From Halobacteriovorax sp. JY17 (GTDB lineage Bacteria; Bdellovibrionota; Bacteriovoracia; Bacteriovoracales; Bacteriovoracaceae), in NCBI RefSeq assembly GCF_002753895.1, contig NZ_NJER01000002.1:741990-805989 (forward strand): DNA of 64,000 nt, given 5' to 3'. Below, one piece after another: positions 6,259 through 9,006 of this stretch (position 1 is the first letter of the stretch; each line of letters begins with the position of its first letter). A program made the position numbers and the translations under genes. The notes under the pieces were generated by a model. The model had not been told where the DNA came from. It made no database searches and saw only the letters and a list, made by a program, of their open reading frames with translations.

Positions 6259-6419
6259 GCTGAAATGCCAACGATTCTTGCTACTAAAATCCTCAGCCTA
6301 TAAAAAATAACCTATTGAAAATACAGACATTTGGCTTTATCTACCCAATTCTTTTAGAACTCACTTGAAGGTAGAATAAAATAAATACTATATAGATTAG
6401 ATAAAGGATGGTTAGTCGC

Positions 6420-8699
6420 ATGAAGACTATATTTTCTTACCTAGCAAAATGCTTTGTTACTTACACTCTCTCATTTGCACTCTTACAAGTTCAGGTTTTC
6501 CTGCCAATTGAAAACTTGAGGCACGCTAGTGGAAATGTCATGGCCGCCAATGACGGGGTAACTCTTGGAGAAGATGGTGTTGCTACGAAATCGGGTAGTG
6601 TTGACTTAAAAAATGAGAAAGGAAATGCTCTTCTTGATCATCTTTCAATGCTTGCATTTGGCTTTTTTACGTCAAGGGCTTTAATGATTTGTAAGCCATT
6701 ACCAATGGATGTAATGATTGCCGCTGCAGGTGGAGTTATTTACATAGGTGGTGAACTTTATACTTTTAATGCTTTTAAAGATTTAAAATCAAAAGATAAA
6801 GTTACTTATAACTCTAGGGAAGATGGCGAAAATGAAAAACAAATAGAAATTCTCGAGGCCCAAAAGAAGGGCTATGACGATATCGCTAAAACAGCTAAGA
6901 CTAAGGCCATGATTCAAATGGCTGCAGGAGCAGCTTATGGTATCTCAGCAGGATATGCACTCCTTAAAAGTGCTGAATTCGGGATGGAGACAGCACATTG
7001 TGGTACCTGCTCCGTTACTACTGCTATAGCAGCTAAGCTTGAACTTGAAAAATTTGATCCTTCAAAGCCTTCAGCTGTTACCGCTCCTGTTATTTACGGG
7101 TTGTGCACAGCTATGGAAGCTGGTGCTCTTTCGGCTAGTTTAGAGCCGAGCTGTACCCAAGCAGAGGCAAGTTGTGTACTTAATGCAGCAACTTGTTCTC
7201 AAGAAGTTATGATTTGTAATCCTAGTGGCGCTACTATAATGGGAAGTAATACTCCTGATGCATTTCAAAAGTTTGCAAGTAAAGGACTGAAGTTTCCAGA
7301 GATAGAGTCTGTTATGGACGATAATTTTATTGCAGAAACAATTAAAGAGACTTATTTAGAGGGCTTTCAACGTGAGTTTCAGCTTTCAAGTTTTATAGAT
7401 AAGTCTAATCCATTTTATGATTTAAATAAGAAAATGGAGTTTGATGAAACAAATTTTGAAACGCAAGTTAACTCCTATGCTAGAAATAGGGATATGAGTA
7501 GATACTATCAAGGTGAAATCTCTTCAATGTCAGTTGAAGAATTTTCTAGTTTTAAAAAATCAATGTTTGAACTAGAGGTAGGTTCGAGTTCAGATAACCT
7601 TGGTGAGAGTCTGAAGCTAGTTCTTCATTCGGGAATTGATTTAATCATTCCAAATACTCATGCAGGAAGTATGATGACAATGCTGGGTGGTGTTGCCGGA
7701 ATTGCTCTCGCATTATTTAAGACGACAAGTTATTTGGTTGATAACTTTATGGCGACGCCTGGTAATAGAGGGCTTATTTGGATAGTGGGAGCAGGATTAG
7801 CTTTAGTCGCTTCAAATTCTAGTAAGAAAATTCAAGAAAGTGCTGAAAAGAACTCAGGAAAAATTCAAGAAATTATTAATAAACTTAACAGTCAAGGTCA
7901 AAAGAACGTCGACTCTCTAGGGGGGAATAGACTTGCAATTCCGTCTCAGATTCCATTTAAGTTAAAAGGGAATGCTCCTTTATCAATTGGCCCTGATAAA
8001 GCACCATGTGCTGATAAGCCAGGAACTTCGGGGTGTGGTTCTTTAAGAAGTGGTATTGAGAAGAATGCTGGCTTTGCTAGTCTTGGTGGGAGTTTTGGTG
8101 CTCTCGCTGGAACTGCAGGTGCAGCTGCTGATGGAGTTACGGGAAGTGATAATATTCCATCAGCTTCAGTTGATGGACTTGTTCAACTTTCAAAAGAGAA
8201 TAATGCTGTTCAGAAGAAATTAAGAGCAGTTCAAAGAAAGTTTAATCAAGCACTAAAAGAAAGTGGTAAATCTCCTCTTGATTTTGAGAAATTAAATGAG
8301 AATATCTTAGCGAAGCTTAGAAAAAACACACAAGCAGCCCTTGCTAAATCTGGTAAATCTGCAGCAGATGTTTTAGCAGCTCTTGGGCCTGTTGCTAACA
8401 GTAAAGAAGAAGAAAAGCCAAAAGTGGCAGCTACTCCGAAAAATGAGAAATTAAAAATGACTTCGGGAACAGCTAAGAAAAATAATGGTGGCTTTAAGTT
8501 AGATCTAGAAAATGAAGGCTCAAATGATGCCCTTCAGAGTGATGAAGTTCTGGCGAATCAGGCCGCGGCAAATGCTTTAAACGGCGAGGCTCAGGATGAT
8601 ATCGTTGCAAATAAAGATGTATCAATATTCAAGGTTATATCTGTTCGTTATTTAAAATCTGGTTTTAATAAATTATTAGATGAAGAAGTTAAGAAGTAA
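6420..8699 (+). CDS. Large exported or membrane protein of unknown function
   Basis: About 759 residues, not recognised. It begins with a hydrophobic signal-like segment (MKTIFSYLAKCFVTYTLSFALLQVQVF). Further hydrophobic or small-residue stretches lie near residues 85-115 (MLAFGFFTSRALMI, VMIAAAGGVIYIGG), 165-185 (MAAGAAYGISAGYALL) and 420-470 (MLGGVAGIALALF, WIVGAGLALVAS). A Cys-rich stretch (CGTCSV, CTQAEASC, CSQEVMIC) suggests disulfides outside the cytoplasm. The last 250 residues are Ala/Lys/Asn-rich and probably flexible. The ATG at 6420 is preferred over 6408 because AAAGGA then lies at a normal distance. It is a single-gene unit ended by a hairpin. Confidence 0.75.
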   Translation: MKTIFSYLAKCFVTYTLSFALLQVQVFLPIENLRHASGNVMAANDGVTLGEDGVATKSGSVDLKNEKGNALLDHLSMLAFGFFTSRALMICKPLPMDVMIAAAGGVIYIGGELYTFNAFKDLKSKDKVTYNSREDGENEKQIEILEAQKKGYDDIAKTAKTKAMIQMAAGAAYGISAGYALLKSAEFGMETAHCGTCSVTTAIAAKLELEKFDPSKPSAVTAPVIYGLCTAMEAGALSASLEPSCTQAEASCVLNAATCSQEVMICNPSGATIMGSNTPDAFQKFASKGLKFPEIESVMDDNFIAETIKETYLEGFQREFQLSSFIDKSNPFYDLNKKMEFDETNFETQVNSYARNRDMSRYYQGEISSMSVEEFSSFKKSMFELEVGSSSDNLGESLKLVLHSGIDLIIPNTHAGSMMTMLGGVAGIALALFKTTSYLVDNFMATPGNRGLIWIVGAGLALVASNSSKKIQESAEKNSGKIQEIINKLNSQGQKNVDSLGGNRLAIPSQIPFKLKGNAPLSIGPDKAPCADKPGTSGCGSLRSGIEKNAGFASLGGSFGALAGTAGAAADGVTGSDNIPSASVDGLVQLSKENNAVQKKLRAVQRKFNQALKESGKSPLDFEKLNENILAKLRKNTQAALAKSGKSAADVLAALGPVANSKEEEKPKVAATPKNEKLKMTSGTAKKNNGGFKLDLENEGSNDALQSDEVLANQAAANALNGEAQDDIVANKDVSIFKVISVRYLKSGFNKLLDEEVKK

Positions 8700-8713: not shown

Positions 8714-8730
8714 CCCATCTTTCTGATGGG
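8714..8730 (+). terminator. Probable intrinsic terminator
   Basis: CCCATC (8714-8719), loop TTTCT, GATGGG (8725-8730), 15 bases after the stop of the 759-residue gene. The T content after it is modest, so termination may be incomplete. Confidence 0.5.
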
Positions 8731-8742
8731 GCATTTCATATT

Positions 8743-8803
8743 TGGGCGGAAATCCTGCCGATATATTAAAAATGTCATGGAGTTTAAAATGGCGGTCCCG
8801 GCA
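8743..8803. repeat. Direct repeat copy 1: tRNA-Arg 3' end plus downstream flank
   Basis: This 61-base segment is nearly identical to 8884-8943, differing by one inserted T in the TATAT tract. It includes the last 14 bases of the tRNA-Arg gene (CCA tail, acceptor strand and two T-stem bases, on the minus strand). Just beyond it, TGCGAC also occurs in the tRNA body, but the rest of the tRNA is missing. It is therefore a copy of the tRNA end without a functional tRNA. Confidence 0.85.
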
Positions 8804-8804
8804 T

Positions 8805-8882
8805 GCGACGCAATCAAAATGCGTTAGCATTTTGGTGGTCGCTTTACCGTTGTGCAATTGCGAAACGTCAGTTTCGAAATGC
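8805..8882. other. Two-hairpin structured insert between tRNA 3'-end repeats
   Basis: Hairpin A (8805-8842): outer stem GCGAC/GTCGC and inner stem CAAAATGC/GCATTTTG around a GTTA tetraloop. Hairpin B (8854-8882): core CGAAAC/GTTTCG around GTCA, with an imperfect outer extension closed by GCA/TGC. The doublet fills nearly the whole space between the two direct repeats. It resembles a REP/BIME-like doublet or a small structured RNA, but no known family is recognised. Confidence 0.55.
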
Positions 8883-8883
8883 A

Positions 8884-8943
8884 TGGGCGGAAATCCTGCC
8901 GATATATAAAAATGTCATGGAGTTTAAAATGGCGGTCCCGGCA
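8884..8943. repeat. Direct repeat copy 2: overlaps the intact tRNA-Arg 3' end
   Basis: This 60-base partner of 8743-8803 spans the 3' end of the working tRNA-Arg and 46 bases beyond it. The period between the copies is about 140 bases. A comparable arrangement is known at E. coli tyrT, where repeats carrying the terminal bases of tRNA-Tyr follow the gene. Confidence 0.85.
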
Positions 8944-9006
8944 GGATTCGAACCTGCGACCATTCGCTTAGAAGGCGAATGCTCTATCCAGCTGAGCTAC
9001 GGAACC
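8930..9006 (-). tRNA. tRNA-Arg (anticodon TCT)
   Basis: Read on the minus strand, the acceptor GGTTCCG (9006-9000) pairs with CGGGACC. The D-arm GCTCAGCTGGATAGAGC, anticodon stem TTCGC/GCGAA with loop CTTCTAA, and T-arm with GGTTCGAATCC are all intact. The anticodon TCT reads AGA, a frequent Arg codon in this AT-rich window. Discriminator G is followed by an encoded CCA (8932-8930), giving 77 bases in total. Confidence 0.97.

Follow-up and report, generated by a model that had tools for sequence, protein, structure and literature searches.

In the window analysed here (the whole stretch of 64,000 nucleotides from Halobacteriovorax sp. JY17, genome G000), the 3′ end of a tRNA-Arg gene is found twice, and a pair of hairpins separates the two copies. 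What is this insert, and how did the end of the tRNA gene come to be repeated around it? We propose that the insert is probably one copy of a small, non-autonomous palindromic mobile element of about 88 nt, which inserts at the ends of genes.

The tRNA-Arg locus and its twin-hairpin insert

The tRNA-Arg gene (anticodon TCT, 8930-9006, minus strand) is intact, as found by ARAGORN and by Rfam (RF00005, 72.2 bits). It is transcribed leftwards, so that the insert and the second repeat copy are located downstream of its 3′ end. Two repeat matches were detected in the window, one of 37 nt at 100% identity (8767-8803 and 8907-8943, offset 140) and one of 29 nt at 97% (8743-8771 and 8884-8912, offset 141). 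Combined, they make a repeat of about 60 nt with one indel. Its right copy occupies 8884-8943 and its left copy, with one extra T, 8743-8803 (no strand being assigned to either). In the right copy, the last 14 nt (8930-8943) are the tRNA 3′ end, and the first 8 nt (TGGGCGGA) belong to the element, as its 3′ end. The left copy terminates in the tRNA fragment GGCGGTCCCGGCA. The original prediction of a 60-base repeat including the last 14 bases of tRNA-Arg was therefore borne out by the repeat search and by ARAGORN. Its suggestion that the insert might be a tRNA remnant was not, as the tRNA gene is complete and the insert bears no relation to tRNA.

The two hairpins with GTTA and GTCA loops, also predicted, do lie between the repeat copies. 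The boundary had to be moved, however: the full-length twin-hairpin element covers 88 nt (8804-8891, plus strand, 90.3 bits with covariance model R1) and includes the terminal TGGGCGGA, formerly counted as the start of the repeat. It is made of hairpin 1 (8805-8842, plus strand; GCGAC..GTCGC at the base, CAAAATGC-GTTA-GCATTTTG at the top), a TTTA linker (8843-8846, plus strand) and hairpin 2 (8847-8890, plus strand; CCGTT..GGCGG at the base, CGAAAC-GTCA-GTTTCG at the top), both hairpins being delimited by the fold and by the family consensus. Folding of the 91-nt insert stretch gave z-scores of −3.9 and −4.3 on the two strands, and none of 200 shuffles equalled it.

This architecture is that of a family, of which 59 copies were catalogued (see below). 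The consensus is about 88 nt long, with two unlike hairpins in fixed order and a 3′ end reading (T)GGGCGGA. The linker reads TTTAC in 42 of the 59 copies, and GCGGA or GCGGC forms the 3′ end in 50. Sub-types of hairpin 2 exist, in which the CCG/CGG foot is replaced by CCTTG/CAAGG or CCTTA/TAAGG. Among 60 aligned matches, two-sided (compensatory) changes were observed in 30 of the 31 pairs (251 cells, compared to 64 after shuffling), and standard pairs filled 91.5% of the cells, compared to 75% when shuffled and 32-43% when slid; having been fitted to the model, the alignment has some advantage, but the slid and shuffled controls still remain far below. A general inverted repeat at the element borders was present at a few loci only. 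Fuller copies, with an extra hairpin within hairpin 1, are found at L056, L060, L074, L076 and L034. A search of Rfam over the insert, up to E = 1, returned no match at gathering score, and a known RNA family was rejected as its identity; at eight other element loci, tRNAs and cobalamin riboswitches were found, and nothing else.

On the side opposite to the tRNA, the element adjoins an ORF of 763 aa (6408-8699, plus strand), convergent with the tRNA and giving no Pfam match. A terminator-like hairpin (CCCATC-TTTCT-GATGGG, 8714-8730, no strand assigned) was recognised by eye between this ORF and the repeat. On the tRNA side, the 9 nt that follow the element (AATCCTGCC, 8892-8900, plus strand) read as the reverse complement of the stretch of tRNA gene that spans the insertion point (GGCA/GGATT, 8940-8948). 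A like arrangement exists beside the element at the tRNA-Thr of sister genome G001 (L033), where CACTGAGCC faces GGCTC/AGTG of that tRNA's own sequence, and GATA comes next in each case. This complementarity is a post hoc observation, and it is missing at most other copies.

Dispersed copies and their mobility

Searching the window's own genome with the region revealed a second place, at 78% identity, behind the ribonucleotide reductase (RNR) gene, and relatives yielded further copies at 75-94% identity. A lack of other copies and of conservation, which would have refuted the original prediction, was not seen: there are copies elsewhere in this genome and in other members of the family. In a pattern scan of 85,000 species genomes, clear copies were confined to Bacteriovoracaceae / Halobacteriovoraceae. 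Other taxa (Arthrobacter, Bordetella, Clostridia, Rhodospirillaceae and others) also gave pattern matches; as these lacked the hairpin context, we attributed them to chance. A covariance model built from 11 copies detected the element within its own family (Halobacteriovorax and relatives), where 22 of 129 genomes, in 9 of 48 genera, have it; the other families of the phylum sample gave no match. Carrier genomes have 1-9 matches each at E ≤ 0.01, counts that rest on prefiltered searches in which weak copies may be missed. The window's genome has three copies (at tRNA-Arg, at tRNA-Ser and behind the RNR gene), and G001 has nine, plus one doubtful match. No copy was found in a phage or plasmid, and a phage, plasmid or viral origin was rejected for want of a credible match. 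In the accessible parts of papers on REPs and on Halobacteriovorax genomes, such repeats are not mentioned. We conclude that the twin hairpin defines a new family of small palindromic mobile elements, REP- or MITE-like in kind, and unusual in its architecture and its preference for gene ends.

Several comparisons bear on mobility. The tRNA-Arg(UCU) site is empty in G002, G003 and G004, and congeners differ, filled or empty, at eight sites (tRNA-Ser, tRNA-Thr, tRNA-His, RNR, rny, EF-G, groEL and a sigma-54 regulator), the copy at the RNR site of G001 being degenerate. The clearest evidence comes from one copy of G001, L268, whose donor can be traced. It is 79 nt long, 95% identical to the tRNA-His locus of the same genome and cut at its 5′ end, and it comprises the 3′ part of the tRNA-His element, the flank and 9 nt of the tRNA-His end. 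It directly follows the TAA stop codon of a PilT-type gene; in G000 and G004, the orthologues of this gene have no copy. A full copy after a PilT-type gene of another genus (L139) is independent. That a site can be filled in one species yet empty in another, and that one copy has a traceable tRNA-His donor, argues that the family is mobile, a conclusion that these sequence comparisons support well.

At four post-stop sites where G001 has the element, the G000 orthologues (L244, L247, L250 and L254) carry a short CGC-containing stretch just 3′ of the stop (ATCGCGAA, AACGCGAGC, AAATCGCTGAA and TCACGCCGA, respectively), and G003 and G004 do not have it. These stretches are possibly scars of lost copies, so that loss in G000, and not gain in G001, may have happened there.

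For the window locus, the most economical history would be the following. The element would have entered tRNA-Arg(UCU) 14 nt from its 3′ end, in an ancestor of the window species and G001, and its entry would have duplicated the tRNA end plus flank. The unit would then have been duplicated in tandem, and the outer copy would be decaying, part of its element (hairpin 2) being kept in G001. Since G001 retains this hairpin, we read the TGGGCGGA at 8743-8750, the first 8 nt of the left repeat copy, as what probably remains of the preceding element in the window's species.

Insertion sites, direct repeats and alternative explanations

Copies next to protein genes, which outnumber those beside tRNAs, very often begin immediately 3′ of the stop codon, in sense orientation. 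Counting from 5 nt before to 10 nt after the end of the stop codon (nearly all being within 4 nt), and using a simple ORF caller, 19 of the 59 copies start at a same-strand stop codon. The corresponding proportion of intergenic positions at the same loci is 3.0%, which makes an excess of about tenfold (binomial p = 4×10−15, an optimistic value, as copies in tandem or orthologous in sister species are not independent). Genes targeted in this way encode GroEL (two genera), EF-G, RNase Y, SSB, ribonucleotide reductase, a PilT-type ATPase (two genera), GMP synthase (GuaA), a transketolase-family subunit and a sigma-54 activator; the names RNase Y, PilT-type and GroEL come from Pfam domains and from our own reading of the sequences.

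Another class of copies abuts tRNA genes: Arg (in the window), Ser, Thr, His, Arg again and Val. Like those at RNR and at one other gene end, they begin within the gene or where it stops. They occur in both orientations, and those at Arg and His run against the tRNA. For three of the tRNA genes (Ser, Thr and the Arg of L035), the junction immediately precedes the conserved AG of the D loop. In another genus, too, tRNA-Arg(UCU) has a 5′-truncated copy nearby (L128, the place of L067), apparently an independent insertion. Two cobalamin riboswitches likewise adjoin copies; at L119 and L125, tandem arrays of elements adjoin such riboswitches, with a left flank, GGCAGGTCTTCGGGCT, that looks like a riboswitch end. 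A structured RNA coupled to the tRNA, as had also been proposed, is not the common theme, given the two orientations beside tRNAs and the larger number of copies beside protein genes.

Direct repeats ending at the left junction were 13, 15, 20, 20, 21, 24, 30, 37 and 44 bp long. Within the tRNA class, the repeat of the window has 37 nt (60 if the indel is included), that of Ser 20, of Thr 15 and of another Arg 13, and His has repeats of 20 and 24; similar repeats exist outside tRNAs, at RNR (30 nt) and L136 (44 nt). At the tRNA sites, element-free congeners have a single copy of the repeat sequences. This supports the idea that the repeat is a duplication accompanying element insertion, and the earlier suggestion of an integration scar pointed in the right direction. 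Insertion with duplication of the gene end leaves one intact gene. Post-stop copies have no direct repeat of the 13-44 bp kind seen at tRNA-type sites, so that one insertion mechanism may not cover both classes.

The usual small mobile palindromes land loosely in intergenic DNA. Repeated landing a few bases from the stop codons of essential genes, or in tRNA ends with repair by duplication, would, if true, be a strategy by which a tiny element reaches safe sites, and might point to a targeting principle that is new. It is conceivable, though we doubt it, that the family represents a new class of bacterial mobile element homing to gene ends (post-stop positions and tRNA arms) and leaving the gene unharmed, guided by translation termination, by transcript ends or by short base-pairing with the target.

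The strong covariation, and the sense copies standing between stop codon and terminator in many housekeeping mRNAs, would also suit a structured RNA acting in cis. The hairpin pair would then be kept behind stop codons and tRNAs for its action in the transcript (stabilising the mRNA 3′ end, shielding it against Rho or exonucleases, or guiding the processing of the tRNA trailer), and dispersal would be secondary. However, the presence of the element at a given gene is sporadic among congeners and the copy number is low, and as both orientations occur beside tRNAs, the transcribed strand differs from one to the other. We consider this explanation improbable.

Even less likely is a SINE-like origin, in which reverse transcription of the folded RNA would take place at nicks in gene ends and generate variable target duplications and 5′-truncated copies. 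Duplication lengths do vary (13 to 44 bp), several of the target genes are expected to be highly expressed, and 5′-truncated copies exist (in G001 upstream of tRNA-Arg, L067 and L268), but this truncation bias may be a detection artefact, since the conserved 3′ end drives the search. Moreover, at Arg and His the element and the tRNA point in opposite directions, and RVT_1 had no match in the window's own genome nor in seven carriers (G100, G110, G077, G010, G117, G015 and G105). A resident reverse transcriptase being absent from most carriers tested, it is unlikely to be the mobilising enzyme. Finally, a neutral tandem duplication of the tRNA end with hairpins of local origin, as in the E. coli tyrT repeats, would fit the tandem unit with its trace of a second element copy in G001, and the two units likewise present at the tRNA-His of G001, but it is hardly credible, being contradicted by the dispersed copies, which have the same hairpin pair with conserved linker and end at many unrelated sites.

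Known elements and candidate mobilising enzymes

Returning to a mobile element, we read it as comparable to REPs and MITEs, with an unusual architecture and target choice. In the accessible parts of two reports, RAYT Y1 transposases are credited with part of the mobilisation of REP/BIME palindromes (GTAG and CGTC super-families; PMC3733652, PMC2817692). Like these palindromes, the twin-hairpin element is small, palindromic, non-coding and dispersed, mostly extragenic and downstream of genes, has paired hairpins, and resides in hosts that encode Y1 transposases. In contrast, REPs are 20-40 bp long and usually present in tens to thousands of copies, compared to about 88 nt and 1-9 per genome here. 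REPs carry an unpaired GTAG or CGTC tag, whereas the twin-hairpin element has no general tag: a CGTC-type tag was seen at the foot of hairpin 1 in 9 of the 59 copies, where CGTC can pair with GACG, and GTAG near the 5′ end in 5. The TTTA linker, the GGCGGA end and the exact post-stop or gene-end placement are further differences, and its copies do not, as a rule, flank RAYT genes. Of the REP-like doublet originally proposed, the dispersed palindromic element is retained, but its tag, size and copy number are not those of a REP.

MITEs and other non-autonomous derivatives of insertion sequences are short, non-coding, mobile, structured and presumably moved in trans. The twin-hairpin element has the same properties, presumably including movement in trans, and its sites are empty in relatives. 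It differs in that we saw no terminal inverted repeats that extend over the full unit, and in that the duplications accompanying some of its copies range from 13 to 44 bp instead of having a fixed length. No parent transposon of the element was found. The units of the E. coli tyrT repeats, which give the rtT RNA, follow a tRNA and carry at their end a duplicate of its 3′ terminus. The analogy with rtT holds for this layout, which the window shares, and for nothing beyond it. The unit here contains a dispersed mobile element found at several tRNAs and protein genes. Integron attC sites are folded single-strand recombination sites right behind stop codons. The twin-hairpin element is also folded and also right behind stop codons, but the RYYYAAC / GTTRRRY end pairs are present in 0 of 59 copies, on which ground an attC identity was rejected, and no cassette arrays were seen.

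The empty and filled sites and the traceable donor offer a concrete handle for finding the mobilising enzyme. Y1 (HUH) transposases act on single-stranded hairpins. A Y1 transposase was found in all 14 carriers that are at least 90% complete, compared to 43 of 59 non-carriers (Fisher p = 0.03, phylogeny being ignored), which makes a resident Y1 enzyme a weak candidate. The element might thus be mobilised in trans, as single-stranded, hairpin-folded DNA, by such a transposase, for example the resident RAYT-type proteins; we put this forward tentatively. With the exception of G110, no transposase gene was found beside a copy. There, a RAYT gene, apparently with its own terminal repeats, has two copies in its vicinity, at distances of 1.3 and 2.1 kb. 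This was the only one of 36 RAYT neighbourhoods with model matches, meaning that a RAYT flanked by twin-hairpin elements is not general. The gene next to the fuller copies was rejected as a mobilising gene, as the upstream sequence shared by several of these copies is an antisense MutM-like (MPELP..) start or a fragment of it; this start stands on the left of L056, L060, L074, L076 and L034, at different loci.

RAYT-type proteins number one or a few per genome in the family (L170, G000:C2:444543-444824, in the window's genome; other Y1_Tnp loci are L171-L204). Several of the RAYT genes are bounded by their own inverted repeats, which contain GGTACGTGGTACC- or GGTGCCATGCACC-like palindromes and have no relation to the twin hairpin. 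This agrees with the accessible part of one report, according to which the terminal repeats on either side of a RAYT gene may have nothing in common with REPs (PMC3733652).
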